Below, piece after piece: positions 11,917 to 38,162 of a DNA stretch of 38,162 nucleotides. Below the pieces are notes generated by a model, which worked only from the letters and a program-made list of their open reading frames with translations, had not been told where the DNA came from and did not search any database. This DNA is from Oligoflexales bacterium (GTDB taxonomy: Bacteria; Bdellovibrionota; Oligoflexia; Oligoflexales; Oligoflexaceae), in the NCBI GenBank assembly GCA_015232735.1, contig JADFZC010000001.1:1-38162 (forward strand), written 5' to 3'. Both the position numbers and the translations under genes were made by a program. Each line of letters begins with the position of its first letter. Position 1 is the first letter of the stretch.

Positions 11917-11941
11917 TGGGCCATAACGCAAATTCCCTGTA

Positions 11942-12011
11942 ATAATTAGTCGCTGGTGCTTTCAGCGCCAGCGACGTATCCTGGCAAGCGAAGCTTGCAT
12001 AGGATCTGTCG
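11942..12011. repeat. Twin-hairpin intergenic repeat, copy A
   Basis: Lies 25 bases after the last gene of the Stn-like operon. Layout: ATAATTAGTC lead, hairpin 1 (GTCGCTGG arm, CCAGCGAC closing arm), then hairpin 2 with ATCCT/AGGAT outer arms and GCAAGC-GAA-GCTTGC inner stem. Related copies: 21332, 23224, 37805, 38027, 38108. No T-tract follows, so it is not a standard intrinsic terminator. Confidence 0.8.
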
Positions 12012-12080
12012 CGGGTCAACCTCGATCTTTCTTCGACCACACTGGATATTTCATTTCCTCTGTCTAATTCTAAGCCACTC

Positions 12081-12298
12081 TTTTCTTCATTTGGTATTGC
12101 TTTTTCATCATTTGCCTTAAATTTAGACCAAAGATAGACGAGTATCCTGCCGAGAGTGTTGCCTCGTCGCTCTTCATTCTGCTTTTCCCCAGTTGACCAT
12201 CACTTTTTCTTCATTTGGTATTGCTTTTTCATCATTTGCCTTAAATTTAGACCAAAGATAGACGAGTATCCTGCCGAGAGTGTTGCCTCGTCGCTCTT
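12081..12298. repeat. 94-bp perfect direct repeat, period 124
   Basis: 12081-12174 and 12205-12298 are identical, separated by 30 unique bases. Each copy contains GACGAG...CTCGTC arms. On the minus strand each copy reads about 30 open codons (SDEATLSAGYSSIFGLNLRQ then MMKKQYQMKK) ending in a stop shortly after, so this looks like a duplicated gene tail. No start site or known family. The rest of 12012-12558 holds no gene I can support; the plus-strand frame at 12156-12398 only reads through the repeat. Confidence 0.75.
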
Positions 12299-12558
12299 AT
12301 TTGAGCCCACACCCACGCCGATGTATACGAACAAGGCCCACGCGGTTCATGTACACGACAACGATATTTTTATAATATTTAATTTTATGGTCCACTGATC
12401 CGTAGATTTACTTTTTTAAATGTTAAGGTCATTAAATTTCATCGTCCTTCCTTGAAAAAATGGGGACTTCCCCCATATTGTAAAATAATCATATTAATCA
12501 TATAATTTATGGCAAAGTTACTGACTTAATTTTATTGGGTATATTGCAAGGGGTATTT

Positions 12559-13179
12559 ATGTCTAAAAAAATCTTTGCACTTGTTTGTACATATAGAAAA
12601 GACCGGACAATAGACAAGGCTATCGATGAAATCCTGAAGGGTCCCATTTCCCAGGGGGCTGAGGTTAACAAGGTTTACCTTCTTGATAAAAAAATTGAAT
12701 TTTGTCACAATTGTCGGTCATGTACACAAAAAGAGGGGATGGTCAGGGGGAAGTGCGTCCTCAGCGATGACATGGACAGGGTTCTCACGGATATGGAAAG
12801 GGCGGATGTAATTGTTTTTGCGGCTCCTGTAAACTATTACAATGTAAATGCACTTACACGAAGGTTCATTGAGCGTCTCATATGTTATACCTACTGGCCA
12901 TGGGGTTCAAGGGGCGGCCCTTTGCCGAGATTGAGAGTCCTTGAAAAAGATGCCTATATAGTGGTTTCATCGGCGGCACCGGGATTTCTTATTCCATTTA
13001 TGACTGGAGCTACAAGGGTTTTAAAGATAGCAGCAGGGTCTTTCGGGGCAAGGGTGGCCGGTACGTTATATCTGGGACTTGCCGCACAGAGTGAAAATCA
13101 GCCGCTTTCAAATGGACAAATCAGAAGTGCCAGAAATTTGGGTAAAAAGATTATGTCCCATAAAAGCGGGATGGAATGA
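12559..13179 (+). CDS. Flavodoxin-fold NAD(P)H-dependent FMN reductase / iron-sulfur flavoprotein
   Basis: Cytosolic flavoprotein of 206 residues. It begins KKIFALVCTYRKDRTIDKAI, the first strand and FMN-phosphate loop of the NADPH-dependent FMN reductase family. CHNCRSC followed by a fourth Cys ten residues later (GKC) resembles the compact Fe-S motif of iron-sulfur flavoproteins, though the last gap is longer than the usual 4-7. Then DDMDRVLTDMERADVIVFA and APVNYYNVNA, typical of the family. ATG 12559 has AAGGGG about 5 bases upstream; an in-frame TTG at 12535 lies before that site. Single gene; electron acceptor unknown, possibly ferredoxin, which would fit the neighbouring ferredoxin-linked complex. 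Confidence 0.8.
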   Translation: MSKKIFALVCTYRKDRTIDKAIDEILKGPISQGAEVNKVYLLDKKIEFCHNCRSCTQKEGMVRGKCVLSDDMDRVLTDMERADVIVFAAPVNYYNVNALTRRFIERLICYTYWPWGSRGGPLPRLRVLEKDAYIVVSSAAPGFLIPFMTGATRVLKIAAGSFGARVAGTLYLGLAAQSENQPLSNGQIRSARNLGKKIMSHKSGME

Positions 13180-13242
13180 CCGGGAAATTGGAAGTCAGTG
13201 ACATATTCCCGGTGAGGGATTCGGGTTTTCGGAGATGAAGTC

Positions 13243-15270
<2,028 letters not shown>

Positions 15271-15304
15271 TCATGGCCTGTGTTCACCTGACCATGTCCG
15301 AAGG

Positions 15305-15415
15305 GTAAACCCGGCCCTGAAGGACCGGGTGTCGAATCAGGAGAGGCTTTAAACCTCTTCTGATTTTGGTTAGCTTGAATAACCTCGCCCTGAAGGACGA
15401 GGTTTACTTAAACTT
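15305..15415. repeat. Hairpin repeat at gene 3' end (copy 2, inverted and longer)
   Basis: Three palindromes: 15310-15329 (CCCGGCCCTGAAGGACCGGG), 15335-15365 (AATCAGGAGAGG ... CCTCTTCTGATT) and 15381-15404 (AACCTCGCCC ... GACGAGGTT). Read on the minus strand it matches 5385-5447 in order and spacing, with an extra leading hairpin. It overlaps the end of the methyltransferase gene and supplies its final codons and stop. Confidence 0.75.
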
Positions 15416-16095
15416 GATGAAGAGGCAAATGCAAGTGTCATAATTCGTATATTGAGGTCCTTGCCGCTCGCTTCATCGTATGTACACAGGTCTTCCGTTT
15501 TTACTGAAAACCCTTTCTTTTTCGCAGCTTCGATAAATTCCCCGTAATATGTTCGTACAGGATCTGCTATGATTATCCGAGTATTTGAATGGGAAACCTT
15601 CAAAAGAAGATCGATTATTTGGGCAAAATACTGTCGTTCGTATAGAATGTCGGAAGCTATCACGAAATCATAGTTGCCTTCTGGCGTACTTTCGGACTGC
15701 CAGTCCATTAACCTGAATTCTATGCCGGAAAGTCCGTTCAGCCTCTTATTTTTTTCAAGAAGTTCTCCTATTTCAGCAAGATAATCCGCAGCTGTAGTCT
15801 TGCCTCCCAAAGCTGTGGCCACCATGCCGGGAAGGGCAATGCCGCATCCAAGTTCAAGCACTTTTTTCCTGCCGAGATCATTCGAGTAATTTTCGTTTAT
15901 GAATCTACCGAGAGCCAATGCCGAGGGCCATATCCTGCCGTAGAGAGGCACCCTGTGCTTTGTAAGATCCAGCTCTTTGGGATTAAGGGTATCGAGGTAT
16001 CTGTCGATGGTTTTTTCAAAATCCGAGAACACGTTGAACGAGAATTTTCTTTCTCCTATCATGATATTCTGGATTTCAAATCTGTAACCGGTCAT
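15370..16095 (-). CDS. Class I SAM methyltransferase, METTL21/Methyltransf_16-like
   Basis: Methyltransferase of 241 residues from ATG 16095. Motifs: VPLYGRIWPSALALG (entry motif), VLELGCGIALPG (SAM motif I, about 79-90), FRLMDWQ, and SDILYE (post-I catalytic region). These are features of protein-lysine methyltransferases of the METTL21 group; the substrate is unknown. A TTG at 16119 would add 8 residues and overlap the upstream gene's stop region; neither start has a strong ribosome binding site. The last dozen residues (SKPRPSGRGYSS) are encoded by the hairpin repeat at 15381-15404, so the native C-terminus was probably replaced. Confidence 0.8.
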   Translation of the reverse strand: MTGYRFEIQNIMIGERKFSFNVFSDFEKTIDRYLDTLNPKELDLTKHRVPLYGRIWPSALALGRFINENYSNDLGRKKVLELGCGIALPGMVATALGGKTTAADYLAEIGELLEKNKRLNGLSGIEFRLMDWQSESTPEGNYDFVIASDILYERQYFAQIIDLLLKVSHSNTRIIIADPVRTYYGEFIEAAKKKGFSVKTEDLCTYDEASGKDLNIRIMTLAFASSSSLSKPRPSGRGYSS

Positions 16096-16122
16096 AAAAA
16101 AGCTATAATCCGTCAGCAACCG

Positions 16123-17640
16123 TTATTTCGGTTTTTCAGTTTCGGTTGGCGGTTTTGTTTCAGGTTTAATTGAGCTGTCCTCCTTTGATTGTTCCGGCTT
16201 GGGAGCAGAAGGTTCAGGCTTAACCTGTGCATCCGGTTTTGCGGCGGAGGTCTCCTTGGATTCGTCTTTGCCGGTTTTTCCGGCTGGAGGCGCCGGCGTT
16301 ACAGGTTGAACAGCCGGCTCCGTCTTTGAGTCCGTTTTGACGGACTGAACAGCCGGCTCCGTCTTTGAGTCCGTTTTGACGGACTGAACAGCCTGCTCTC
16401 CCCCGGCGGATGGTTTTGCATCCTTCTGAGAAGTCTGGTCAGGCGGTTTGGCGCCAGTGGCTTCAGTGTTTGCCTTGGAATCAGGTTTTTCAGGCGGTGC
16501 GGCGATTTGTGCCGGTTTTTCAGGTTTCGTTCCCTGCTCCTCCGATTTTTCTGCGGCAGCGCCGCTTTTTGAAGATTCGGTTTTTTCTTCGCCGGTTTCA
16601 GTTGCTGATTTGTTGTCCTTTTTTGACGCCAGGGAGTCCTGCTGTGTCTCCGGTTTTGCCGCCTGCTTCTGCTTTTTGGTGGATTTTGATTTTTTCGCCA
16701 TCTTCACAGGCTGTTTTTGCTGTTTTTCGGAAGCTATGGGGCCCGTATCTATCCTGTCCTGATATTGGAGCGAGATCCATTTTATAACCCGCGTGAAATC
16801 AGCAAATCTCGTGTGTTTTCCTTCCGCCCCCAGAAATACCATTCCGATATCCCTCCCCTCCGGAATGCGTGCAGCCACAGCGAAGCAATATCGGGCAAGA
16901 TCCGTGTAACCTGTCTTGCCTCCAAGTATCTGTGCAATGTTTTTTGACAGCAGCCTGTCCGAGTTTTTTATTTTGATCTGACGGCTTCTGTCATCCTTGT
17001 AGGCAGTCATAGTGTATTCGGACTTGGTCATAATTTCAGTTATGATCGGTATCTTGATTGCTTCCCTTAGCGCGATCATTATTTCTCTTGCCGTCGAGAC
17101 ATTTTCAGGGGAAAGCCCGTTTGGTTCTTTAAAGGAGGTTTTTACAAGTCCAAGTTTTCGAGCCTTGGCTGTCATTTTTTCAGCTATGGCTGATGGATTG
17201 AAGCCGCATGCCTCGGCAAGCGCAGGAAAAGCCCTGTTGTCTGATCTCATGAGTGCTGCATGCAGAAGATCCCTGTGTGAAAAACTCCATCCGGTGGTAA
17301 GTCTTGTCTTGTCTCCACCCTTGGCTGCATCCCTGTTGGCGTTGGTCATCTCATGCAGTTCTTCAGGATCAAGATTGCATTCGTCCAAAAAAGCGAGAGC
17401 GGCAAACATCTTCGAAATGCTTGCAATGGGTCTCACAACATCAGCATCTTTCTCATAGAGAATCTCTCCCGTGTTGAGATCGGCAATCAGCGCTACAGCG
17501 GATTTTATGTTTGGTTTTCCGTCTCTTGTCACTGCCGGGGTCGCCCTGGATCTTTTTGCTGCAACAGATTCATGAGGGTATGCGAACAACCAGAGGCAAA
17601 TAGTTGATATGACAATTTTTTTTAGGTTCCTGAATCTCAT
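16123..17640 (-). CDS. D-alanyl-D-alanine carboxypeptidase (peptidase S11, PBP5-like) with low-complexity tail
   Basis: Periplasmic peptidoglycan DD-carboxypeptidase that removes the terminal D-Ala of pentapeptides. From ATG 17640 it has 505 residues: signal peptide 1-28 (IVISTICLWLFAYPHESVAA), SxxK motif Ser74-Lys77 (ASISKMFAALA), Ser133-Asp-Asn (SDNRAF), and Lys242-Thr-Gly (GGKTGYTD). Residues about 310-505 are Lys/Pro/Glu/Ala/Ser-rich with a perfect 13-residue repeat; the membrane-anchoring helix normal in PBP5 is absent. The tail could span periplasm or bind wall. An upstream start at 17712 would put 24 residues before the signal peptide, so I reject it; the Shine-Dalgarno at 17640 is weak (GAGAT). 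Confidence 0.9.
   Translation of the reverse strand: MRFRNLKKIVISTICLWLFAYPHESVAAKRSRATPAVTRDGKPNIKSAVALIADLNTGEILYEKDADVVRPIASISKMFAALAFLDECNLDPEELHEMTNANRDAAKGGDKTRLTTGWSFSHRDLLHAALMRSDNRAFPALAEACGFNPSAIAEKMTAKARKLGLVKTSFKEPNGLSPENVSTAREIMIALREAIKIPIITEIMTKSEYTMTAYKDDRSRQIKIKNSDRLLSKNIAQILGGKTGYTDLARYCFAVAARIPEGRDIGMVFLGAEGKHTRFADFTRVIKWISLQYQDRIDTGPIASEKQQKQPVKMAKKSKSTKKQKQAAKPETQQDSLASKKDNKSATETGEEKTESSKSGAAAEKSEEQGTKPEKPAQIAAPPEKPDSKANTEATGAKPPDQTSQKDAKPSAGGEQAVQSVKTDSKTEPAVQSVKTDSKTEPAVQPVTPAPPAGKTGKDESKETSAAKPDAQVKPEPSAPKPEQSKEDSSIKPETKPPTETEKPK
16307..16384. repeat. 39-bp tandem repeat inside the carboxypeptidase tail
   Basis: Two identical 39-base units (16307-16345, 16346-16384) encode VKTDSKTEPAVQS/P on the minus strand. 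The perfect identity suggests a recent slippage duplication in the low-complexity tail, with copy number likely to vary between strains. Confidence 0.8.
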
Positions 17641-17765
17641 TTTGATCTCTATGTTCAATAAATACAAAGAGTTAGTGAATAACATTACATGATTATAACC
17701 AAAACGCCTCAAGACTGCGACTTCAGATTTTTTTTATTTTGCCTGTTACCTGTAAGCAATTGGAT

Positions 17766-18866
17766 CTAATAAAAATATATTCTGTTGTAGCTTGGGAATT
17801 CCCAGTTTTTGCTCTGAGATTCGAGTATCATTTCCCTTATTGCCGTCAGCTTTCTGGCTTTCAGACATCTCGCAAAAAAGGCATGGCCGAAAAGATACCA
17901 GATATGGCTGATGCGCACGTGGAAAATAAATTTTCTTTCTCTTTTTGACTCGTTTTCGACATATTTTTCCAGAAAATCAATCAGTCTCAAACAGCTTTCA
18001 AGATAGAATATTCCTTCTTCCTCCCGCGTTAGAGGAGGCGTTTTTCCAGGGTACGGCTCAGGCGAATCCCTTATACCAAGCTTATGTGCAATCTGCCAGA
18101 ATATCCATGGCCTTGCGGTAATTGCCCTTCCTATCATCGACCCGTCGACATTATGTCTTTCAATAAGGGAAATGGCATCTTCAGCGGTCTGAATATCTCC
18201 ATTTGCTACAACGGGAATGGCTCGTTTCATGCGGAGTCTTTCAATCTGTTTCCAGTCGGCATCGCCAGAGTGTTTGCTTTTTTTCAGTCTTGCATGGATG
18301 ATTATAAAGTCGGCGCCCGCCTTTTCAAGTTTTTCAGTAAAAAAGTCGAGATAGTCGAAATCAGCTTTTTCCACTCCGATGCGTGTTTTTACGCTTACAG
18401 GAATATTCAGATGGCGTTTGGCCGCCTTTACCATGTTTGATGCGGTTTCGGGATTGTCCATGAGGCTTATTCCGCTGGAGCGGTATCGTGCAACCTTGAG
18501 CGTACAACCCATGTTTATATCCACTCCCCAGGGTGAGATAGAACGTATTTTACTGATGCTTTTTTCTATTTGCTGTTCATTGCCGCCCAATATCTGCATC
18601 ACCAGATTCTCCCTGTCGCGGTCGGAAATCCTGAGTTCGTCTATTCTGTCAGGTCTGTCGCTGGGAAGGCGAAGTGCGGAAAGCATTTCTGAAAAAAGCA
18701 GGGGTTTTAAGGAAGAGGGGGTATAGGATCTCACAAGTTCCCTGAAGGCCGCATGTGTCAACCCAACCATTGGTGCTGCCATAAATGGAAATTCTATTCC
18801 AAGTCTGGTCAATCTAGTCTGCAAATTGGCATGGGTCATGGATTCCCGTTCCTGATCGGTTAACAT
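17766..18866 (-). CDS. dus: tRNA-dihydrouridine synthase (Dus family)
   Basis: FMN enzyme that reduces specific uridines of tRNA to dihydrouridine with NADPH. TIM-barrel start PFMAAPMVGLTHAAFRELV (about 27-45), ENLVMQILGG, catalytic Cys121 in INMGCTLKVARYRSSGISLM (the family usually has GCP, here GCT), SVKTRIG, and FMN-phosphate loop VVANGDI...GSMIGRAI. Length 366 is slightly above the usual 310-350. ATG 18866 has a poor ribosome binding site; ATG 18839 follows AGGAACGGGA and is a credible alternative. It sits 23 bases after the acyl-CoA synthetase gene, so they are probably co-transcribed. Subtype (DusA/B/C) not resolved. Confidence 0.9.
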   Translation of the reverse strand: MLTDQERESMTHANLQTRLTRLGIEFPFMAAPMVGLTHAAFRELVRSYTPSSLKPLLFSEMLSALRLPSDRPDRIDELRISDRDRENLVMQILGGNEQQIEKSISKIRSISPWGVDINMGCTLKVARYRSSGISLMDNPETASNMVKAAKRHLNIPVSVKTRIGVEKADFDYLDFFTEKLEKAGADFIIIHARLKKSKHSGDADWKQIERLRMKRAIPVVANGDIQTAEDAISLIERHNVDGSMIGRAITARPWIFWQIAHKLGIRDSPEPYPGKTPPLTREEEGIFYLESCLRLIDFLEKYVENESKRERKFIFHVRISHIWYLFGHAFFARCLKARKLTAIREMILESQSKNWEFPSYNRIYFY

Positions 18867-18889
18867 AAATGCCGAGCGCCGGCAACTGA

Positions 18890-20527: not shown

Positions 20528-20590
20528 GATATCCTCTTTTGAATTAAGACATTTTAATTATGATATACTTAATGCGATTTTTAACCCAGA

Positions 20591-21127
20591 TCAAATTTTA
20601 AATTTCTTTCCATTTGAATGGGAGACTTTATTCCCCACTATTTCAAGACCCTCCAGCCGGAGCAATTCTCGTTTTTTCTCAACCCCACTCGAATAACCGC
20701 AGATATCATTGGATGCTGCAATAACCCTGTGGCAGGGGACGATAATCGGGATGGGATTTTTACTGTTGGCTCTGGCTATCGCCCTTACGCTTTTTGGTGC
20801 AGAAAGAAGGTGCGATGCCTGTTCAGAGTAGGATATGGCAGTTCCATAGGGAATGTCACTCAGACTTTTCCATACCCGCAACTCGAACTCTGTTCCGAGA
20901 GATAGGTCAAGTTCCACGTCGAAAGATCTCCTCTTTCCATTAAAATACTCATTCAGCTCTTTTACGGTCTGTATCAAAAGTTCATTTTCGGATTTCTCTT
21001 CAATTTTACCGTAAGATTCAATTTTTCGGGGAAGTGTTTTGTCAAATGAAATTGCGATGATTCCCTTATAGGAACAAATTATTCGCAGGTTTCCGAGGGG
21101 TGAGGCGAATGTGGTTGCATGAAGCAT
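20591..21127 (-). CDS. ogt: Methylated-DNA-[protein]-cysteine S-methyltransferase
   Basis: Suicidal DNA repair protein that takes alkyl groups from O6-alkylguanine onto its own cysteine. 178 residues. The C-terminal half has the winged helix with PYGTAISYSEQA, RAIARANSKNPIPIIVPCHR, where Cys132 of PCHR is the acceptor, and GYSSGVEKKRELLRLEG. The N-terminal half is the usual ribonuclease-like domain. AAGGAAA lies about 5 bases before ATG 21127. First gene of the minus-strand run that ends with the Tgt-MnmD fusion. Confidence 0.93.
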   Translation of the reverse strand: MLHATTFASPLGNLRIICSYKGIIAISFDKTLPRKIESYGKIEEKSENELLIQTVKELNEYFNGKRRSFDVELDLSLGTEFELRVWKSLSDIPYGTAISYSEQASHLLSAPKSVRAIARANSKNPIPIIVPCHRVIAASNDICGYSSGVEKKRELLRLEGLEIVGNKVSHSNGKKFKI

Positions 21128-21331
21128 GCGGTTTCCTTAAATTATGGGTCAAAACTGTCGCAGTTGATTTCTCTCGTTTGAGTACCCTGGCAAGTTTCCA
21201 CTGGTAAACTTACGATTTTTGTAAAAGTACCATAAAAATCTGTATTGAGCAAACAGGGCTGGACTCAATATTTACAAAAAAGGGCAGTGCCCGGGCTTAA
21301 AGTCTTTGCAGCCAAAAACCTATACCTTGGG
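21128..21331. other. Divergent intergenic region left of repeat B
   Basis: Separates ogt (minus) from the PLD-like lipoprotein (plus), with repeat B in the middle (21332-21403) and a further 159 AT-rich bases up to 21562. Promoters of both directions must lie here, but no -35/-10 pair stands out. Confidence 0.35.
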
Positions 21332-21403
21332 ATAATCAGTCGCTGGCGCTGAAAGCGCCAGCAGACGTATCCTGACGAGCGCAGCGAGTATAGGATCTCC
21401 TCG
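21332..21403. repeat. Twin-hairpin intergenic repeat, copy B
   Basis: ATAATCAGTC lead, hairpin 1 GTCGCTGGCGCT-GAA-AGCGCCAGC(A)GAC with one bulged A, then TATCCTGACGAGCGCAGCGA...TAGGATC. The second hairpin keeps only its outer ATCCT/AGGAT arms. It stands upstream of the PLD-like gene, not after a gene, which weakens a pure terminator role. Confidence 0.75.
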
Positions 21404-21562
21404 AAATTTCAGCATATTTCAAACAAATCCTATGCTTTTCTTCGCTTACCGTACCAGAAGCTTAAATTCAATATTTTACCTTATTTATTTATCTGCTCGA
21501 TAAGTTTAAACAATGCCTGGGCGTTGAATTTTAATAATGGAATGCTTTATTGGGGGGTGTTT

Positions 21563-23212
21563 ATGATACGTTTATTGTCAGTTCTTATGATTTTTTTTGT
21601 TTCCATTTCATGTGACGGCAGAAGAGGGAGCCGTGATTTATCTTTGAATACTTTTTTCAGCGACATTTCAGAGGAGCCGACCGGGAGCGCATGGGACTCG
21701 TCGGAATTTGATGTTCTATTTACAAATCCCGTATGCCCGTTTCAGGAGTTTGTCTCGTATAAACCGAGAGGTGGATATGCATTTAAGGAGATAGGTGATA
21801 AATGGGTATATCCTTCCCGGGAGGAAGTAAAGGATGTAACGGTTCCTGTCATGGGGATACCGACCGTAGGCGGGGAATTTAGAAAGGGCATTCCTCCGAA
21901 TGTCTATTGTACAAATAAGGATTTCGCTTTTTCAACCAAAAGGCTTCCTGAAAACAGTTACAGGAAAAAGGAAAATCCAATGAACAGGATTGAGGACTGG
22001 ATAAGCAGGACAAGGGAGCAGGACGAGATTTTTCTAGCTTCTTTCAGCTTCACAAGCAGGCAGTTGAAAGAATGGCTTTGCGCTGCTGCAAAGGAACGCG
22101 GGGTCAAGGTTAAGGTTTTGATCAACGTGAACGAGGATGGGTCGCCGACGGTTGACGCCATAAAGAGCGAATGCCCTGAGATAGAAATGATAGAGGCATC
22201 AAGCAGCGCAAGGCTGGCTCATTTGAAATTCATGCTGGTGTTTTACAATAATTCCAATCATGACGAGAAAATCAGAAAAGATGGATTCCTTTCCTTTCAA
22301 ACGGCAAATGTTTCATTTTCCGGATTTTGGGCTCATCATGAGACATGGAATTTTGTCCGAAAGGATCGGTCGAATTGGTTTATTCAGGACCATATCTGCC
22401 TGAGGGATGCGATCACCAGGGAGACTATGGAAAACATGTTGGAATTTAGTGACAGGATTTCAAAGTGTCGTAGTGAAAAAGGTATAAACAGCCGCAGGGA
22501 GCCGTCTCTTGTCAGCAATTATTTCATACCTGTATCTGGAGGGGAATATAATGACAAGGTTAAGATAAAGGAAATTCTCGAAGAGATAGGACGCGCCAAG
22601 ACACTGAAGATAGCAGCTCATCATATTGCTTATGAGGATATATATGAGGCGCTAATTCAAAGGCTTAAAAATGCTGAAAATGACGGATTCACACTTGAAA
22701 TAGTAATAGACAGCCAGATATTCTGGACAGGTTACACCAAGAATAAGAAAATCGTGGTAGATGACATCGCTTATTTTTCACCGGATGACTATACTGGATA
22801 TTGTCATTATGGGAAAAAGAACGATTCGATCAAGAGAAGTTGCTCAATGTACAATATTTCAGAGTTTTATGGAAAATTTGGACTCAAACGCCTTATTTCA
22901 GAAGGAGCCAGGGTCAGGTATTTTGAGTCCAACCACAGGGATTACAAATTTTTCCATAATAAATTCATAATATCCGAATATAAAAGCCCTGAAGGGGTGA
23001 TATCCGGGAGTGTGTTTGTCGGAGCCGGGAATTTTTCCAAGGCCGCATTTGAAAGGAATCTTGAAAATTATTATCTGATAAAAATACCGCATGTATATGA
23101 GGAATATAAAAAGCAGTTTGATTATCTTTTCAGTTTGGCTGTTGAAAAGGACAGCCTGCCGATTACATGGGATTATGCGGTAAAGGCTCAGGAATATTCA
23201 CCCGCACCGTGA
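21563..23212 (+). CDS. Phospholipase D-like domain lipoprotein
   Basis: Predicted lipoprotein of 549 residues; signal peptide MIRLLSVLMIFFVSISC with acylated Cys17. Two PLD-superfamily halves. The first has HLKFMLVF, so the HxK is present but the Asp of HxKx4D is not. The second has HNKFIISE (HxKx4E) followed by GAGNFSKAAFERNLEN, the usual PLD ending. Possible substrates are lipids or nucleic acids outside the cell; the altered Asp positions make activity uncertain. ATG 21563 follows GGGGGG closely; an ATG at 21539-21541 is in frame but lies before that site and would add residues ahead of the signal peptide. Followed by repeat C and the DDAH gene. Confidence 0.8.
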   Translation: MIRLLSVLMIFFVSISCDGRRGSRDLSLNTFFSDISEEPTGSAWDSSEFDVLFTNPVCPFQEFVSYKPRGGYAFKEIGDKWVYPSREEVKDVTVPVMGIPTVGGEFRKGIPPNVYCTNKDFAFSTKRLPENSYRKKENPMNRIEDWISRTREQDEIFLASFSFTSRQLKEWLCAAAKERGVKVKVLINVNEDGSPTVDAIKSECPEIEMIEASSSARLAHLKFMLVFYNNSNHDEKIRKDGFLSFQTANVSFSGFWAHHETWNFVRKDRSNWFIQDHICLRDAITRETMENMLEFSDRISKCRSEKGINSRREPSLVSNYFIPVSGGEYNDKVKIKEILEEIGRAKTLKIAAHHIAYEDIYEALIQRLKNAENDGFTLEIVIDSQIFWTGYTKNKKIVVDDIAYFSPDDYTGYCHYGKKNDSIKRSCSMYNISEFYGKFGLKRLISEGARVRYFESNHRDYKFFHNKFIISEYKSPEGVISGSVFVGAGNFSKAAFERNLENYYLIKIPHVYEEYKKQFDYLFSLAVEKDSLPITWDYAVKAQEYSPAP

Positions 23213-23223
23213 AAAATTTATGG

Positions 23224-23291
23224 ATAGTCCCTGGTGCCGGGGCATCAGCGGATGTATATTGGCGAACGAAGCGAACATAGGATCCCTACCG
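23224..23291. repeat. Twin-hairpin intergenic repeat, copy C (diverged)
   Basis: Begins 12 bases after the PLD-like stop. Hairpin 1 is TCCCTG-G-TGCC-GG-GGCA-T-CAG-C-GGA: different bases from copies A and D, but still paired. Hairpin 2 region reads GTATATTGGCGAACGAAGCG then AACATAGGATCC. An ATG-less reading into the DDAH frame crosses it, so the DDAH start lies downstream. Confidence 0.6.
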
Positions 23292-23375
23292 AAATCTCAA
23301 TCTTACTACAATAAAAAAATTTTGCCAATCCAGGTGGAAATGGGATACCCTTATGAACTGGCTAGGGAGAATACT

Positions 23376-24194
23376 ATGAATAAAAAAGATACATTTTTTT
23401 CAGTAATAAACAGAATTTATGTAAGACCTGTTCCTGATTCGTTCATCAACAGCATACGCAGCGATCCCACCTTGAGCATAGATATTGCTCTGGCAAGAGA
23501 GCAGTGGAAGAGCTATATCAACACAATAAAGTTCTGCGGGTTGCCTGTCGTTATCCTGCCAAGGGCTGACGATTTGCCTGATAGTGTCTTCATAGAGGAT
23601 ACGGCAATTGTAATAGACAACAACTGTGTGTTCATCACTGAACCAGGTCATCCGCTCAGGAGACCCGAGGCAGAAGGAGTCAGGAAATTTTTGGCGAGAG
23701 ACATGGAGGTAATAGTAAGTCAGCCGGGTGCATCGATAGATGGAGGGGATGTCCTCAGGTATTATGATACCCTTTTTGTCGGTTTGTCAGGACGAACTAC
23801 GGCACGGGGAGTCAATTTCCTTCGAAATGTTGCCAGAAGGCGTAATTTGAAGGTAGTCGAAGTGAACGTTCCCAAAGGGCTTCATCTTAAGACGTATCTT
23901 TCTTTGGTAGATGACTCCACAATGGTTTTTTATCCAGAGTCAGAAATCGACGTTGAACCATTTGAAGATGCGGGTCTTGCAATAATTGAAGCTTCTGAGC
24001 TTTGCGGCGCAAATGTACTTTCTTTGGGAAATAACAAGGTTTTGATAGCGAGTATGGCGAAGAATACCGGAAAGATGCTTGAGAGTATGGGATACGATGT
24101 AATATCGGTTGATATTTCCGAAATTGCAAAAGCCGATGGAGCTTTGACGTGTCAATCGATAAGGGTCCCTGAAGCTGGGGGCTGGTGCAGCTGA
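23376..24194 (+). CDS. Dimethylarginine dimethylaminohydrolase-like amidinohydrolase
   Basis: Enzyme of 272 residues of the guanidino-modifying pentein fold, predicted to hydrolyse N-omega-methylated arginines to citrulline and methylamines. Motifs in order: LPDSVFIEDTAIV (Asp69, Glu74, Asp75), SIDGGDVLR, GLSGRTTARGVNFL, LHLKTYLSLVDD with catalytic His170, and GALTCQSIRV with nucleophile Cys259. This is the DDAH pattern; arginine deiminases are longer. GGGAGA precedes ATG 23376 by about 6 bases; an upstream TTG/ATG frame from 23220 would translate repeat C and is rejected. The gene meets the histidine kinase gene tail-to-tail with 16 bases between. Confidence 0.88.
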   Translation: MNKKDTFFSVINRIYVRPVPDSFINSIRSDPTLSIDIALAREQWKSYINTIKFCGLPVVILPRADDLPDSVFIEDTAIVIDNNCVFITEPGHPLRRPEAEGVRKFLARDMEVIVSQPGASIDGGDVLRYYDTLFVGLSGRTTARGVNFLRNVARRRNLKVVEVNVPKGLHLKTYLSLVDDSTMVFYPESEIDVEPFEDAGLAIIEASELCGANVLSLGNNKVLIASMAKNTGKMLESMGYDVISVDISEIAKADGALTCQSIRVPEAGGWCS

Positions 24195-24210
24195 CATTTC
24201 TTTTTTTTAT

Positions 24211-27088: not shown

Positions 27089-27118
27089 AGGAATGTATTT
27101 TGAAGGAATGTATTTTGA
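27089..27118. repeat. 15-bp direct repeat AGGAATGTATTTTGA x2
   Basis: Two adjacent identical units just before the stop of the esterase gene, in the 200-base gap between two minus-strand genes. Nothing else of note lies in this gap. Confidence 0.5.
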
Positions 27119-27123
27119 TATTA

Positions 27124-28218: not shown

Positions 28219-28425
28219 TTATTTTTCTCCGAAAAAATTTGTGTTATACTCTACTAGACTATGATCTTATAACATACCTATTTTGAGTGAGAAATAATGA
28301 TTTGAGGATAATGTTAAAATGAAACATCCATCTGGTGACAGAAATTTTGTGAAATCACTAAAAAATACAGATTTTTTCAATACCGGCATTTTCATATTGA
28401 TAGAAGAAGACAGGAAACATAACGT

Positions 28426-29631: not shown

Positions 29632-29701
29632 CCTTTGTGATGATTGCTGAAAAAATATTTCATTTGATTCTCTGAGATATTTGGGAATCCTGATGGACTG
29701 G

Positions 29702-30775: not shown

Positions 30776-31076
30776 TATGGTCTTCCCTTTTGTGGTCATT
30801 TTGTTTCTTTTTTGTATCGGGAAAATGATTAAAAAGTTTATGTCATTGTGTAACCCATGAAGATGACGAGATAAAAAATGGCAGCCTTTGTTTATGAAAC
30901 CATTGAGTTAAAATTTTTACTGAACCTTTGGTGAAGATTTTTTGGGACAGGTATGAGCTTACATTTTAAGTTATAAAATAATTTTCAATTTCATTGTGGT
31001 TATTTGTGATATTTGTTTAAAATATTCCTTTAAAATATTATTTTAGCTAAATTATAATAGATTGGAGATCTTCAGG

Positions 31077-32078: not shown

Positions 32079-32079
32079 G

Positions 32080-32390
32080 AGAAGATTTCTTTTTGCAAAC
32101 CATCTGAGCTCTTGCTAAGCCCTTCAATTCATCGAATCGAAGAGTCATCAATACACTTATTATTTGATCTTTAGCTTTGTCGATATTGCTCCTAATGTCT
32201 TTAATTGAGTTCTCCAATTCTTTTTGAGATTTTTCTGAGCGATACATAGAATATGCAGCTTTAGCTATCTCAGCATATTGGCTATAACCCAAACTACTAA
32301 GCAGAGCCCCATATATTAGTATTATTTTTTCACAAACATTTAATAAACTCCATTCTCCGTTATTTTCTGTTTTTTTTATTTTTATTAAGT
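32080..32390 (-). pseudogene. Gene fragment lacking start and end, unknown family
   Basis: A minus-strand frame is open from 32403 through the 3' end of the CPBP gene. The part up to about 32080 reads like real protein (KSQKELENSIKDIRSNIDKA, VLMTLRFDELKGLARAQM; helical, charged) and beyond that it merely runs antisense through the CPBP gene. There is no ATG or GTG start; TTG 32292 has no ribosome binding site. Best read as an internal piece of a lost gene. Confidence 0.4.
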
Positions 32391-32398
32391 TGCGGGAT

Positions 32399-32959
32399 TT
32401 AGTCTATATGTGCTCCGTATGGATTTATTATCCCTTTTGCAAAATCCGCAATATATTGCCAAGATGGATTCGGAATCACGATAAAATCTGAACTTAAACA
32501 ACCTGCCTTTGCTGAACCCACCTCTAATTCACGAGTAACTTGAATCATTGTTGTTGTCTTGGAATTATCAGCTGCTGTTAAAGAAAGTCGCTTGAGGTTA
32601 CCGCTATCAGTTGAAAAAGCAAATTTGCCCTTTGTCGCAGGGTAGGAGATTTCACTTGCTGGACATGCAACCTCAGTCTGAATTTCAAACTCATCAAGGC
32701 TGACTTTTAATGTGCCGAATGCAATCACATGATAAATTTGATACTGATCCCCGCACGTTTCAGCTAAGAGAGCCTTACTATTGCCAACAATGAACTTTGT
32801 ATCGCAAACAGCTTCATATGTGGTTAACTTTCTTGTTGCAAAAACTCCCCAATCCCCATCTAGCGGAGTTGTAATTACGGTAGGCTGGTCATCCCCCTTT
32901 TTGGAACCACATGCTGTAAGTATTGACGCAATGGCAAAAACTACTATTAATTTTCTCAT
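32399..32959 (-). CDS. Small predicted lipoprotein, paralog A
   Basis: Lipoprotein of 186 residues: signal peptide MRKLIVVFAIASILTAC, Cys17. Then GDDQPTVITTPLDGDW, a beta-rich body with four more Cys positions (AVCDTKF, AETCGD, EVACPAS, AGCLSS) shared with paralog B. About 40% identical to B over the mature region by eye, but nearly identical in the first 30 residues. ATG 32959 has GAGG about 10 bases upstream. Function unknown. Confidence 0.8.
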   Translation of the reverse strand: MRKLIVVFAIASILTACGSKKGDDQPTVITTPLDGDWGVFATRKLTTYEAVCDTKFIVGNSKALLAETCGDQYQIYHVIAFGTLKVSLDEFEIQTEVACPASEISYPATKGKFAFSTDSGNLKRLSLTAADNSKTTTMIQVTRELEVGSAKAGCLSSDFIVIPNPSWQYIADFAKGIINPYGAHID

Positions 32960-32990
32960 CTTATATTTACCTCTCATTAATAATTATAAA
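32849..32990. repeat. 5' segment shared with paralog B
   Basis: Nearly identical (a handful of differences) to 33502-33643, covering the signal peptide, lipobox and leader with ribosome binding site. The downstream halves of the genes have diverged far more. Confidence 0.8.
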
Positions 32991-33051
32991 TATTCCAAAA
33001 ATGAAAATTATTCGGTTAACATGCATAGAAATATATCCTCAAACCTTTTAA

Positions 33052-33612
33052 TTATTGAAGAGGTGAATTAATCGGTGCCAATACTCTTGATATAAAATTC
33101 GCTATATTGTTCCACGATTCGTTTGGCATAACCATAAAGTTAACTTCTAAACAACCTACTTTTGCAGCATTTGCAGCCTGTTCCTTTAGAATCTGATTGA
33201 AATCGGTCTTTTTTGTTCCATCTTCTGAGGCTAATGACAAATATTTTGTGTTACTAGAAGCAAGAGCGATAGTAAATTTGCCTTTCGTTGAAGGAAAAGA
33301 GACTCCTTCAAGTGGTGGGCATGCTGCTTCCGTCTTAATTTCATAGACATCTCCAACAACCTCAAGAGAACCAAATGCCACAACATGATAATTTTGAAAG
33401 GCATGATCGCATGTTTCTCCGAGAAAGGCTTTTCCTTCCCCTACAATTAATCGTGTGTCGCATATAAAGCCATATTTAATAGTACTTGTACCAGCTGCAA
33501 TCCAATCCCCATTTAGCGGAGTTGTAGTTATGGTAGGCTGGTCATCCCCCTTTTTGGGACCACATGCTGCAAGTATTGACGCTATGGCAAAAACTACTAT
33601 TAATTTTCTCAT
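33052..33612 (-). CDS. Small predicted lipoprotein, paralog B
   Basis: Lipoprotein of 186 residues in tandem upstream of paralog A, 92 bases apart. Signal peptide MRKLIVVFAIASILAAC with Cys17, GDDQPTITTTPLNGDW, and the same Cys pattern (FICDTRL, GETCDH, EAACPPL, VGCLEV). The conserved Cys residues suggest two disulfides in a periplasm-facing domain. ATG 33612 with GAGG upstream, as in A. Probably transcribed together with A. Confidence 0.8.
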   Translation of the reverse strand: MRKLIVVFAIASILAACGPKKGDDQPTITTTPLNGDWIAAGTSTIKYGFICDTRLIVGEGKAFLGETCDHAFQNYHVVAFGSLEVVGDVYEIKTEAACPPLEGVSFPSTKGKFTIALASSNTKYLSLASEDGTKKTDFNQILKEQAANAAKVGCLEVNFMVMPNESWNNIANFISRVLAPINSPLQ

Positions 33613-33643
33613 CTTATATTTACCTCTCATTAATAATTATAAA
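33502..33643. repeat. 5' segment shared with paralog A
   Basis: Partner of 32849-32990, offset 653 bases. Includes leader, start and signal-peptide coding region. Confidence 0.8.
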
Positions 33644-33914
33644 CAGAGCAATACTGTTTATTTATCAAGCATCCCAATCAATACAATATTTAAAATAGCC
33701 CTGTCAAATTTTTATGAGTTCTAAATTCGGTCTTTAAATTATTATAAAATATTTAATATTTTGATAATTTGTGATTAATGAATAAATGTGAGTAGTTAAA
33801 TTCCAGAAATCTGTTTCAGTGGCGTGTCATTATAACGCAGGATTCATGAGTATTCCGACCCAAATTCAAGAATGAATCCGGTCGACTGTGTTTGTCAACA
33901 TAGCTTTCCCACAG

Positions 33915-33987
<73 letters not shown>

Positions 33988-34139
33988 ATCCTTTTTAGGA
34001 CACCATAATCCTATCTTATCTTTTTACTGTCAAGACGCTATTTTAAAATTGAACAATATGCTTACGCAATCCCGCCCATTTATGGGTGGGTCAAGCAAGT
34101 ATGAGCTAGCTGAGCGCAGCGGAAGGTGAGTAGCCAATC

Positions 34140-34610
34140 TCATGATTTACGTTTTTTTCCTAAAAGAGCATTAGATTTTTTTATATTTTTTGGGTCCGCA
34201 GGTCTTCTTTGGTCAGCAATGTACTGTTTCACCACATCCAGTGGGGCTCCTCCGCAAGACACGACGCAATAACTTGGCGACCAAAGATGTTCTCCCCAGA
34301 ATTTTGTTTTTATTTGAGGCCAGTACTCTTGTCTTAAGAGATAGGAAGATTTTCCTTTAAGTTTTCCAACCAGATTAGCAATTGCCAATTTGGGAGGACA
34401 CGATATCATAAGATGGACATGATCATCTTCCCCGCTAAATTCTATAAGTTTAGCATCCATTTGATTACATGTTTCATCAAAGATAGTGTTAAGTCTATTA
34501 AGAATGCTTTCAGTAAATATACCTCTTCGATATTTTGTAATAAAGACTAGATGTACATAATTTTTAAAAACACAAGATCTACCAGTTCTCCATTTAAAAT
34601 TATCATCCAT
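34140..34610 (-). CDS. tnpA: TnpA, Y1 (HUH) tyrosine transposase of IS200/IS605 family
   Basis: Single-strand transposase of 156 residues that cuts and joins the hairpin ends of the element. KNYVHLVFITKYRRGIF at the N-terminus is the family signature; the HUH motif is HVH (His64, His66) and the catalytic tyrosine is Tyr130 in VVKQYIADQRR. All catalytic residues are present. GGAGG about 11 bases before ATG 34610; the ATG at 34643 would add 11 residues over the ribosome binding site. Confidence 0.92.
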   Translation of the reverse strand: MDDNFKWRTGRSCVFKNYVHLVFITKYRRGIFTESILNRLNTIFDETCNQMDAKLIEFSGEDDHVHLMISCPPKLAIANLVGKLKGKSSYLLRQEYWPQIKTKFWGEHLWSPSYCVVSCGGAPLDVVKQYIADQRRPADPKNIKKSNALLGKKRKS

Positions 34611-34666
34611 AAACTTGACATCCTCCAGAACATTTTGTAGCATTTGCGAAGCAAAGGAACAAGAGC

Positions 34667-36040
34667 ATGTTAATGGGGATTAAATTACAGGCACGTCCTA
34701 CGGAAACTCAGAAGTCAGTGCTGAGCCAGTGGATGGGTTGTGCGCGTTTTGTTTGGAACGCTAAATGCGATGAAGATAAATATCTAAGCTCATTTGCAAG
34801 AAAATTTTTACCAATAGGTACTTATGCACCTATAGACCAGAAGTTTGCTCAATATAAGAACAAAGAGCTGTCGCCATGGCTCTATGATTGTCCGAGCCAA
34901 ATATTGCGCAACTCAGCCGTGGGTTGGTATCAAACCTATCAAAAATTCCTAAGAGGGGAGTGTGGAAAGCCAAAACATAAAAAAAAGTGTGATGGTGGTA
35001 GTGTTCACTTAACGAGCGAATTATTTAGTTTTGTAAAATGCGAGGATGGTGTTTCGCGACTGTTTATAGGGAGCAAGACAAACAATATTGGTTTTCTGGC
35101 GATTAAGAATCATACTTCCTATAATGTTCCGAACTCAATACATATCAAAAAAAAGAATGGTGAGTATTCTGTCTCTTTTTGTTACGAGGATGAACTTGAT
35201 GAGTCAAATCTAAACAATCAAAAAGACAGTTTGGATTATCTTAAAGATGCCTCGAAGGAGTATCTGGAGAAATATGCAGTAGGTATTGACAGAGGTGTGA
35301 TCAGACCGATTCAGGCAGGCAACGATATTTTTGATTTAACCCCCGAGCAAAAGAGAAACAAAATAGCGAAAGAAAAATATTTAAACCGCTATCAAAGACG
35401 TCTATCGAAGCAGAAAAAAGGATCTAAACGTCGTGGTAAAACAAAGAGAAAAGTTGCACTATGTCATAAAAAGATCGCAAATATCAGAAAGGATTTTTGC
35501 CATAAGGCAAGTCATAGTATAGTTTCGAAAAAAGATAATAAAATAATTATATTGGAAGATCTTCAAACCAAGAATATGACCAGAAGACCCAAGGCTAAAA
35601 AAAATGAGATGGGGCATTGGGAAAAGAACCAGGCAAAAGCAAAAGCTGGTCTTAATAAGTCAATTCTTGATAAGGGATGGCACCAATTGGAATCGTATAT
35701 AAAATATAAATCCTATAGGGCTGGTAAAGTTTGGTTTAAAATACCGGCTCTTTACACCTCTCAGGAGTGTGCTGCTTGTGGCCACACTCATCCCGACAAT
35801 CGCATGAGTCAAAGTGTCTTCTCATGTGTGAGTTGTGGTCATACTGACAACGCCGATCATAATGCGGCAGAGGTAATTAAAAAACGAGCAATCAAATTAA
35901 TTTTAGACTCTGGAACGGAGTTGTCTAAGAGGGGTGTCCTTTTAGATACAGGACGTGGAGCCATAAATAAGACGAAACGAGCTAAAGCGAGTAGCGCATA
36001 CGGCAACGAAGCGTCAAAAAAGAAAAGAAAAGTGGCCTAA
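34667..36040 (+). CDS. tnpB: TnpB, RuvC-like RNA-guided nuclease of IS605 element
   Basis: 457 residues. N-terminal helix-turn-helix/WED-type start (LQARPTETQKSVLSQWMG), RuvC-I VGIDRG with Asp208, RuvC-II ILEDLQTKNM with Glu297, zinc finger Cys368/Cys371/Cys387/Cys390 (CAACG, CVSCG), RuvC-III NADHNAAE with Asp397. TnpB proteins are guided by an RNA from the tnpB 3' end and right end and cut the donor-joint target; the complete triad suggests a working nuclease. AAAGGAAC lies about 5 bases before ATG 34667. The C-terminus is Lys-rich. Divergent from tnpA with 56 bases between starts. Confidence 0.93.
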   Translation: MLMGIKLQARPTETQKSVLSQWMGCARFVWNAKCDEDKYLSSFARKFLPIGTYAPIDQKFAQYKNKELSPWLYDCPSQILRNSAVGWYQTYQKFLRGECGKPKHKKKCDGGSVHLTSELFSFVKCEDGVSRLFIGSKTNNIGFLAIKNHTSYNVPNSIHIKKKNGEYSVSFCYEDELDESNLNNQKDSLDYLKDASKEYLEKYAVGIDRGVIRPIQAGNDIFDLTPEQKRNKIAKEKYLNRYQRRLSKQKKGSKRRGKTKRKVALCHKKIANIRKDFCHKASHSIVSKKDNKIIILEDLQTKNMTRRPKAKKNEMGHWEKNQAKAKAGLNKSILDKGWHQLESYIKYKSYRAGKVWFKIPALYTSQECAACGHTHPDNRMSQSVFSCVSCGHTDNADHNAAEVIKKRAIKLILDSGTELSKRGVLLDTGRGAINKTKRAKASSAYGNEASKKKRKVA

Positions 36041-36087
36041 AGCCGCTTAGTATTGGAAGCTAGGCTCTTTAGGGCCGAGTAGTTCAC
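35980..36087 (+). ncRNA. Possible guide (omega/re) RNA region at the IS right end
   Basis: In characterised TnpB systems the guide RNA overlaps the 3' end of tnpB and the right end, with the guide taken from DNA just outside. Here the tail of tnpB and the hairpin at about 36062-36079 occupy that position. Placement is by analogy; no RNA boundary is visible in the sequence. Confidence 0.35.
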
Positions 36088-36154
36088 TTAATCTCCCATT
36101 CTGATAGATGTTCGGCTTTCGATTAATTTTTCAGCACTTATTCAGGTATCTTGT

Positions 36155-36745
36155 ATGAATAAAAGAATACTTTATCTTGCCAGCAACAATAGACACAAGC
36201 TTACAGAGCTAAAATCCATAATCAGTTCCGGCCATTGGGATATCCGACTTTGCAGTGAACTTTCTGAACGCATCTCATGGGAAGAGACCGGCGCAACTTT
36301 TGAGGAAAATGCGAGGATAAAAGCACTTGCGGTGAAAAAATATACAAATCACGCGGTGCTGGCTGATGACTCCGGGCTCTGTGTCCATTACCTTGGACAG
36401 GCCCCCGGCGTCCATTCAAGCAGATATTCCGGAGAAGGGGCCACGGATGAGATCAACAGGAAAAAACTCCTTGAAGCCCTGAAAGACATACCTCTCGAAA
36501 ACAGGTCCGCTGAATTCATATGCTGCCTGGTCTTTATCGATGAAAACGGAAAAGAGTCGGTCTTCAAAGGAACCTGCAAAGGAAAAATTATAGACAGGGA
36601 AAAAGGGAGCAACGGATTTGGATACGATCCTCTTTTTCTCATTGAAGGTTCCAGAAAAACCATGGCTGAGTTAAGCTCCGACGAGAAGAACAGCCTCAGC
36701 CATAGAAGGAGAGCTCTGGACAGCTGGATGGAAGTATTTTGCTAG
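36155..36745 (+). CDS. rdgB: XTP/dITP diphosphatase (RdgB/HAM1)
   Basis: Nucleotide-pool cleaning enzyme of 196 residues that hydrolyses XTP, dITP and ITP to monophosphates. LASNNRHKLTELKSI (substrate loop), FEENARIKA, VLADDSGLCVHYL with the catalytic/metal Asp pair, GVHSSRYSGE, SNGFGYDPLF, and SHRRRAL at the C-terminus: the full HAM1 signature. Length is typical. ATG 36155 has AGG about 8 bases upstream. Immediately downstream of the IS605-type right end, and convergent with the TPR gene (11 bases between). Confidence 0.95.
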   Translation: MNKRILYLASNNRHKLTELKSIISSGHWDIRLCSELSERISWEETGATFEENARIKALAVKKYTNHAVLADDSGLCVHYLGQAPGVHSSRYSGEGATDEINRKKLLEALKDIPLENRSAEFICCLVFIDENGKESVFKGTCKGKIIDREKGSNGFGYDPLFLIEGSRKTMAELSSDEKNSLSHRRRALDSWMEVFC

Positions 36746-36756
36746 ACAACAGACCG

Positions 36757-37731
36757 CTACTTTTTGTTACTTTCAACTTCCTCCACATACTTCAAATACT
36801 CTTTTGTAGTCTTGATCCAACCGAAATCAGGATGGCTTAGAGAGTCCGATATCTCCTGCCTGTATTTTTTTCTGTCAACAAGATAGCCTTCGAGAATCAC
36901 GACCGCCTTGCCTGGATTATTTGTCTTCGAATAGCATCTGGCCAGAAGAAAATTTGATTTTCTTACCATAGCTTCTTCATCTGCCCAGTAATTATCCTTC
37001 CCGGATTTTTCAAACACATATTCCAAAACCGGAATAGCTTTTGTGCACCTGTCAAGCTCCCTGTAAGAATCACCAAGCTTATAGTATCCTTTAAGATCAA
37101 GTTTCCCTTCCACCCTTACAGTTTCATAAAGGGCAGCAGCCTTCTTATAATCCCTTTTCTTGTAGAAATTGTCAGCTTTCACATATTGATCAAGCTTCTC
37201 CGCCTGCTTTCTGTCAGTATCTCCTGCCGCAGAAGAAGCTTTGCCTATGACCTTGTAACTTTTAAAAAAATATGGCGACTGAAGAAGACATGGAGGATTT
37301 GCGCCGCCAGCGCAACATGCCTGCTCGATTACGGCATCGATACGTCCCCCTGAAACACCATCACATTTCCCCTTTCCGGGAAATACAAAAACGCTGATAT
37401 CTTCACCCTTAAGAGCACCCTTCTCTTCGGTCAGACCGCTTTTTACTGCTTGCGAACTGACCACCTTTCCTTTGATTATCAGCCCGCGATAGCTGTCAAA
37501 GAACTTCTTCTGCTCAGGTTTGGCAAACTCTTTTATAAAACGAAACCTCTCACTATTCAGATCGAATGACGCGACCGGATCAAGAACCCCGCAGCTTGCT
37601 GCATCCATGACAATTGGCCCTTTGACAATTGAGACGCATTGAGCGGTTGAAACATGACTCATGCCTATTATCCCCGCCAGTACGAATGTTCCCTGGCAAG
37701 CCCGAATAATTTTTCCAGAATCCACCCTCAT
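36757..37731 (-). CDS. Secreted TPR-containing protein
   Basis: Protein of 324 residues, signal peptide 1-31 (FVLAGIIGMSHVSTAQC; Cys32 would be the mature N-terminus, but STAQC is not a good lipobox). Residues 32-165 form a Cys-containing domain of unknown type (ISVFVFPGKGKCDGVSGGRI; EQACCAGGANPPC). Residues 180-310 hold three to four TPR-like helical pairs (ADNFYKKRDYKKAAALYETV; YKLGDSYRELDRCTKAIPVL). GGGGGAAG precedes ATG 37731. Likely a periplasmic scaffold protein; partner unknown. Confidence 0.75.
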   Translation of the reverse strand: MRVDSGKIIRACQGTFVLAGIIGMSHVSTAQCVSIVKGPIVMDAASCGVLDPVASFDLNSERFRFIKEFAKPEQKKFFDSYRGLIIKGKVVSSQAVKSGLTEEKGALKGEDISVFVFPGKGKCDGVSGGRIDAVIEQACCAGGANPPCLLQSPYFFKSYKVIGKASSAAGDTDRKQAEKLDQYVKADNFYKKRDYKKAAALYETVRVEGKLDLKGYYKLGDSYRELDRCTKAIPVLEYVFEKSGKDNYWADEEAMVRKSNFLLARCYSKTNNPGKAVVILEGYLVDRKKYRQEISDSLSHPDFGWIKTTKEYLKYVEEVESNKK

Positions 37732-38026
37732 TTTGATCTTCCCCCAAACGTATTATAATAGGAAACATTAATTTCCAGCCCCACAGACAGTTCTTTCCCA
37801 AAAATCTGTCCTGATGAGTACAGCGATCATAGAATCTGTTTTGATATTTCATCAAAATGCTGTCACGATCCTATGAGATTAAATTTATTGCCAATAAAAT
37901 TATATGATGTCAGCCTTTCAGAATCCAATACTTTTTATCTGTATTCTTTGTATCATCTTATATCATTTTATTATCATTGAGTGCGCAATCTCCAAAATTG
38001 CTGGTAAAAAAGACTTTCCTCCGGAT
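37732..38026. other. Intergenic region rich in hairpins
   Basis: No credible gene. A degenerate twin-hairpin copy lies at 37805-37841, followed by a TTTTGAT/ATCAAAA hairpin (37839-37857). A 60-codon plus frame at 37904 and a minus frame at 37958 run through the repeats and are not credible. Confidence 0.4.
37805..37841. repeat. Degenerate second half of twin-hairpin repeat (copy F)
   Basis: TCTGTCCTGATGAGTACAGC then GATCATAGAATCTG resembles the hairpin-2 part of copy B (TATCCTGACGAGCGCAGCGA, GTATAGGATCTC). Hairpin 1 is missing. Confidence 0.45.
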
Positions 38027-38100
38027 ATAATTAGTCTGTGGCGCTTTTGCGCCACAGACGTATCCTGGCAAGCAAAGCTTGCATAGGATCTGTTTGTAGT
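38027..38100. repeat. Twin-hairpin intergenic repeat, copy D
   Basis: ATAATTAGTC lead, hairpin 1 GTCTGTGGCGC-TTTT-GCGCCACAGAC (11 perfect pairs), hairpin 2 TATCCTGGCAAGCAAAGCTT, GCATAGGATCTG. Its last 55 bases are repeated exactly as copy E. Confidence 0.85.
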
Positions 38101-38107
38101 AACGCAA

Positions 38108-38162
38108 TTTGCGCCACAGACGTATCCTGGCAAGCAAAGCTTGCATAGGATCTGTTTGTAGT
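38108..38162. repeat. Twin-hairpin repeat, tandem copy E running to the window edge
   Basis: Identical over 55 bases to 38046-38100, period 62. It has the right arm of hairpin 1 and all of hairpin 2, and the unit may repeat again beyond the edge. Confidence 0.85.

Follow-up and report, generated by a model that had tools for sequence, protein, structure and literature searches.

The window analysed here is the whole 38,162-nt stretch of contig JADFZC010000001.1, and it carries a repeat unit of approximately 67 nt that is dispersed at several intergenic sites, all copies coming from this one 38-kb window. Four full copies were delineated on the + strand: A (11941-12009, with hairpin 1 at 11949-11975 and hairpin 2 at 11978-12005), B (21331-21399, with a bulged A in hairpin 1 and an altered inner hairpin 2), C (23219-23286, the most diverged, with a bulged C in hairpin 1 and an unsupported hairpin 2) and D (38026-38093, with both hairpins perfectly paired). 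Copy A begins 24 nt past the stop codon of an oxidoreductase gene (9862-11916). Copy B lies between divergent genes for an O6-methylguanine methyltransferase (20591-21127, - strand) and a phospholipase-D-like protein (~21563-23212, + strand), and copy C begins 6 nt past the stop of the latter gene, which ends at 23212. Copy C overlaps the 5' part of a mechanically called open reading frame (ORF) at 23220-24194, the true start of which may be placed at 23376 on account of a ribosome-site-like AGGGAG. Copy D is located upstream of a - strand gene (36757-37731) with weak TPR matches, and the ORFs overlapping it are all 67 aa or shorter. The density amounts to four full copies in 38 kb, none of them within a gene provided that the ORF after C begins at 23376. 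This gene map agrees with a preliminary description of the same DNA, which had placed A and C behind genes and B between divergent promoters.

Profile and fold analyses indicate that the unit is real as a repeat. Leave-one-out profiles, in which three copies were used to find the fourth, recovered A at E 3e-17, B at 1.8e-12, C at 3.6e-8 and D at 3.1e-14, so that the four good copies first listed at 11942, 21332, 23224 and 38027 detect one another. A covariance model (R1) was then built from all four copies, and its recovery of A-D is by construction. Searched against the window, R1 gave 18 matches with E of 10 or less and no further full copy beyond A-D. The opposite strands of the copies were matched, as is expected of palindromes (E 0.0086 for A, 0.08 for B, 2.2 for C and 0.00022 for D), as was a second hairpin element (5390-5458, E 0.021; 5428-5448, E 3.4; 15300-15367, E 0.37), and the remaining five matches had E above 3. 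The consensus reads ATAATYA, hairpin 1 as GTC..TGGYGC-loop-GCRCCA..GAC, GT, hairpin 2 as ATCCT..AGGAT, and CT.

Hairpin 1 retains its pairing across different arms. When the bulged A of B and the bulged C of C are dropped, 11 of 11 pairs form in all four copies, which bears out the earlier remark that the arms vary but stay paired. The arms are GTCG/CGAC in A and likewise in B around the bulged A, GTCT/AGAC in D, and GTCC/GGAT in C with the bulged C and a G-T pair. Relative to A, both sides are changed at two adjacent pairs in D and at one pair in C; A and B differ by a single letter in this hairpin. Simulated substitutions of equal number retained all 11 pairs at frequencies of 0.0019 (A to D), 0.0022 (A to C), 0.0010 (B to C), 0.0079 (B to D), 0.0002 (C to D) and 0.12 (A to B), these six pairwise comparisons being mutually non-independent tests. 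In a MAFFT alignment with the bulges kept, two-sided change was found in 4 of 22 pairs, three of which belong to hairpin 1, and hairpin 1 pairing fails at two pairs in B and at one in C. The preliminary description had proposed a check for covariation, and in this check shuffles matched the covariation score in 6 of 500 cases, the percentage paired in 6 of 500, the count of pairs with two-sided change in 21 of 500 and the further pair types in 98 of 500, while six slid controls gave zero two-sided changes. Drawn from four copies and few pairs, the covariation is suggestive and not proven. As far as four copies allow, the two-sided changes do keep the first fold. Selection on the fold, as claimed there, is one possible cause; paired changes of this sort would also be left by the amplification of subfamilies that had diverged, or by templated repair from one arm of the palindrome to the other.

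Hairpin 2 behaves differently among the copies, with z-scores against dinucleotide shuffles of -3.84 in A, -3.52 in D, -0.88 in B and +0.06 in C. In A and D the inner stem comprises 6 bp capped by a tip of three bases, and the single letter by which the two differ is located in that tip. Copy B has G.A and A.G at two inner A-T pairs, a replacement that could form a tandem sheared step, and A-T at one G-C pair; in C, two outer and four inner positions deviate from the pairs of A. The 3' ATAGGATC of hairpin 2 is invariant in all four copies, so that conservation in hairpin 2 concerns the sequence more than the stem. Of the original "twin hairpin" designation, hairpin 1 stands in every copy and hairpin 2 in A and D, which that description best suits, but not in B and C.

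Folding of whole copies gave z-scores against shuffles of -7.06 (A), -3.00 (B), -0.22 (C) and -7.89 (D) with RNA parameters, and -6.66, -2.93, +0.98 and -8.00, respectively, with DNA parameters. Because the two parameter sets give similar values, the fold cannot discriminate RNA from DNA. With respect to transcription signals, the + strand lacks a T-tract downstream of the units in A-D; a five-T run occurs on the - strand of C approximately 10 nt past hairpin 1, and a scan for terminator-like sites over A, B and C found one within a copy (A, - strand). A terminator as the sole function was rejected, in line with the initial assessment, since the + strand carries no T-tract and B sits between divergent genes.

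The shared orientation of the four copies would arise by chance in 1 of 8 cases, which is weak. Across 1-36000, all but one of the 12 blocks of 3 kb show positive GC skew. From this skew the + strand is probably the leading strand, so that the single orientation fits a preference for the lagging-strand template and every copy would present the same strand to the replication fork. We propose, with about even confidence, that the copies form a family of extragenic palindromes resembling repetitive extragenic palindromes (REPs), mobilised as single-stranded DNA by a Y1 HUH transposase encoded elsewhere. The + strand of the unit would fold while single-stranded in the lagging-strand template; the enzyme, from elsewhere in the genome, would recognise hairpin 1 and copy or move the unit in trans. 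A unit lying behind a gene, such as A or C, may also be transcribed and would then place a stable 3' stem-loop on the mRNA. If mobile, the unit would add to the palindromic repeats for which no transposase is known, from a poorly sampled lineage, and as an untagged two-hairpin unit it would be of use in studying target recognition by Y1 enzymes.

The closest parallels are found among REPs. In the accounts given in PMC8266576 and PMC6006769, REPs and bacterial interspersed mosaic elements, served by the RAYT transposase (TnpA-REP), are short, dispersed intergenic palindromes with variable stems and tandem reiteration along with flanking DNA, as here, but theirs are 20-40 nt in length, whereas the present unit has 67 nt and a second, less constant hairpin. 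For GTAG REPs, the same accounts require GT[AG]G at the hairpin foot. The CGTC REPs, as characterised in the sections of Di Nocera et al. 2013 (PMC3733652) used here, have an unpaired CGTC, an 8-9 bp stem, a 4-5 nt loop and a CCA-like tail. The present repeat resembles them in that three of the four copies (A, B and D) have CGTC on the - strand at the hairpin 1 foot, and in that a dedicated transposase is likewise not known for that family in those sections; it departs from them in that the GTC of CGTC is paired, the stem has 11 bp and C has no such motif. Atypical hairpins without a GTAG tag do flank certain Y1 enzymes, described in the relevant part of PMC6006769 as subclass 2.6. Cozzuto et al. 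2008 (PMC2267715) reported 92 stem-loop repeat families in 40 genomes, of which 67 were previously undescribed and two thirds intergenic. Those are repeats with a common predicted secondary structure, like ours, the comparison being made by description rather than by sequence. With 67 of the 92 previously undescribed, new families are common and one more is to be expected; present views would not be overturned, whether the unit is mobile or acts as RNA.

Several observations weigh against the proposed mobilisation of a REP-like family. GTAG or GTGG stands at the hairpin foot in none of the four copies, by the placement given in the accounts cited above; GT[AG]G is absent from both strands of A, B and C, and the GTGG of D lies within the stem. 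The CGTC definition, scored on tag and stem, fails as well, the tag being paired and the stems being at least 11 bp. IS200/IS605 elements usually insert next to a fixed short target, and at the copies no 4-mer is common to three of the four left or right flanks, nor was a consistent target duplication seen at the four. A Pfam scan of 27 of the 72 ORFs listed for the window gave one Y1 match, of the IS200/IS605 type, and no RAYT was seen among those 27. Copy B lies between divergent genes, unlike the REPs of PMC3733652, which that paper, in the sections used, places predominantly between unidirectional and convergent genes. Lastly, there are only four full copies, from a single 38-kb window. 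Because the GTAG and CGTC tests failed, the repeat is not assigned to a named REP superfamily. Our best reading is that the layout is REP-like and that the repeat is probably new as a family and ordinary as a kind; its absence from the literature, which was searched as text and not as sequence, is not claimed.

Among the alternatives, a transcribed RNA element fares best, although we regard it as rather unlikely. Such an element would be a stem-loop of the 3' untranslated region that protects mRNA ends or sets their processing, spread by recombination and selected as RNA. Copies A and C, 24 and 6 nt past stop codons and sense to the upstream gene, suit this explanation, as do the RNA folds of A and D, which are much more stable than those of shuffled sequences; if the unit acts as RNA, the repeat marks gene ends in the host lineage. 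The placement of B between divergent genes and of D upstream of a - strand gene speaks against it, as do the similar z-scores by DNA and RNA parameters and a search of the whole window with Rfam 15, which gave no match at the copies and returned only a tRNA and, opposite that tRNA on the other strand, one match below threshold. More doubtful is the suggestion that these are old copies of a non-autonomous miniature inverted-repeat transposable element (MITE) of the DDE-transposase type, or that recombination alone spread the repeat; the paired changes would then stem from templated repair or diverged subfamilies and not from selection. The window does hold other small inverted-repeat elements (arms 838-863/935-960; a hairpin element at 5385-5447 and 15310-15372), and the clearest paired changes fall in two adjacent pairs and perhaps reflect few events; yet no terminal inverted repeat was seen bounding the unit at the four copies, nor any consistent target duplication.

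Less probable still is that the copies are binding sites for a nucleoid, segregation or regulatory protein that recognises the palindrome in its double-stranded form. The single orientation of all copies and the invariance of ATAGGATC could be accommodated by such sites, but the two-sided stem changes show that the identity of the paired bases varies. We attach very little probability to a bistable two-hairpin switch, in which one and the same TATCC could pair either with the AGGAT of hairpin 2 or with a GGATA box that precedes hairpin 1. In B, C and D, GGAT(A) occurs shortly 5' of hairpin 1 (within 21320-21340, 23205-23230 and 38014-38040), and in B and D it can pair with TATCC. GGAT, which was noticed after the fact, stands within 12 nt before the stem in these three copies, with a chance of approximately 0.05 per copy, and is absent from A. 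The two competing folds are less than 1 kcal/mol apart in B (-30.9 vs -31.3) and D (-37.9 vs -38.8), but because A lacks GGATA and C lacks TATCC, the full alternative stem is impossible in those two copies. A switch, if true, would represent either a new kind of two-hairpin single-stranded DNA mobile unit, with bound and released states, or a dispersed RNA switch.

The resident insertion sequence (IS) was also considered as a mobiliser. An IS605-type tnpA/tnpB unit with divergent genes lies at ~34060-36090, beside a tRNA-Thr gene. Its Y1 protein (34140-34643) matches the IS200/IS605 transposase model NF033573 at 140 bits (cut-off 55), and the neighbouring ORF (34667-36040) matches a guided TnpB. 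None of the 18 matches of R1 in the window falls at the ends of this unit, and a blastn-short comparison of the copies with its flanks returned a single match of 10 nt (E 0.04), to copy B only. Because the ends of the IS605 unit are unlike the repeat, its TnpA is not a good candidate and is unlikely to mobilise the repeat; the Y1 enzyme near D, put forward in the preliminary description for that role, proves to be an ordinary IS200/IS605 match. An ends-only derivative of this element (~34.1-36.1 kb) moved by its TnpA, comparable to the palindrome-associated transposable elements (PATEs) of PMC7290912 in having two hairpins within one short gene-free unit and in line with the tnpA and tnpB genes 2-4 kb from copy D, is largely refuted: R1 has no match at the IS ends, no insertion tetranucleotide is common to the copy flanks, and that lone 10-nt match is all that is shared with the IS605 ends, whereas the example described in the part of PMC7290912 consulted keeps both left and right ends of its resident IS.

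Searches beyond the window covered plasmids, phages and viral contigs, one scan of genomes with an exact pattern, and 297 genomes of a single phylum; none turned up a convincing homologue. The exact hairpin 2 pattern, which A, B and D match and C does not, occurred in 0 viral contigs and at one place in genome contigs, in a Desulfovibrio metagenome-assembled genome (MAG), where AGTC and GAC precede it. This place scored 12.8 bits with the model (E 0.016 over two loci, 0.0087 over one), but its inner hairpin 2 stem is broken, and a 247-aa ORF of the other strand spans the place; because it had been picked by letters that the model rewards, it is taken as chance, though not proven so. Two more viral pattern scans gave 0 and 5 places, and none of the five loci matched the model at E up to 0.1. 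With blastn, the copy A region had no match in plasmids, and the matches of copy D to 17 phage records (E 6, 21 nt) and one plasmid (E 6) were rejected as chance. R1 matched one of the 297 genomes at E 9.2e-4, a lone hairpin without the second part, which was likewise rejected. These 297 genomes represent the phylum of the genome (G001) holding the Desulfovibrio place, were reached via that chance match, and may not be of the host's phylum. As C itself escapes the exact pattern, and as Infernal's stricter filters were applied to the 297 genomes, these searches would not have picked up diverged relatives. Three window proteins had best non-self identities of 70, 61 and 44%, the first two among 120 of approximately 8,000 matches listed, and the names among the protein matches were mixed (Marinimicrobia, Spirochaetales, Oligoflexus and others). 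Such identities indicate that the protein database lacks close relatives of the host, and the absence of homologues therefore says little.

Two less complete copies were also identified on the + strand. Partial copy E (38095-38155, E 4.7e-9) comprises the 3' arm of hairpin 1 together with hairpin 2 and is part of a 62-nt tandem unit that reaches the window's end. A possible degenerate copy F (~37782-37839), mainly the hairpin 2 part, is marginal at E 0.19 with the four-copy model and ranged from E 0.0087 to 0.37 in the four leave-one-out profiles; the extra partial copies mentioned at the outset are thus secure at the former place and marginal at the latter. The last 55 bases of the window are an exact repeat of 38046-38100 at a spacing of 62, ending at the final base (54 of them confirmed in a second comparison), and the end of the window may reflect a short-read assembler meeting a tandem repeat. 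The arrangement points to a tandem array of the unit's 3' half beyond D, and D with E resembles the REP clusters described in the sections of PMC3733652 used here, in which tandem reiteration includes flanking DNA.

Other repeats of the window were noted in passing. The second two-hairpin element is present at 5378-5455 (- strand) and 15303-15407 (+ strand) as inverted copies that are 95% complementary over 63 nt, each adjoining an ORF end; a viral scan for it gave one contig, which had no match to R1. At 15381-15403 there is one more hairpin, whose arms are CCTCG/CGAGG vs CCCGG/CCGGG, paired both ways. The MITE-like inverted repeat at 838-960 has 26-nt arms (85% complementary) that start with AGAGCCTGTTGAAAAA and are separated by 71 nt. 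Just past copy A, at 12081-12298, a 94-nt exact direct repeat with a spacing of 124 nt contains GACGAG..CTCGTC around TATCCTG. Two adjacent 192-aa ORFs on the - strand (32399-32977 and 33052-33630) had no Pfam match, and a 155-nt DNA stretch at and before their 5' ends is 92% identical between them. Finally, an exact 39-nt tandem duplication (16307-16384) lies within a D-alanyl-D-alanine carboxypeptidase-like gene.

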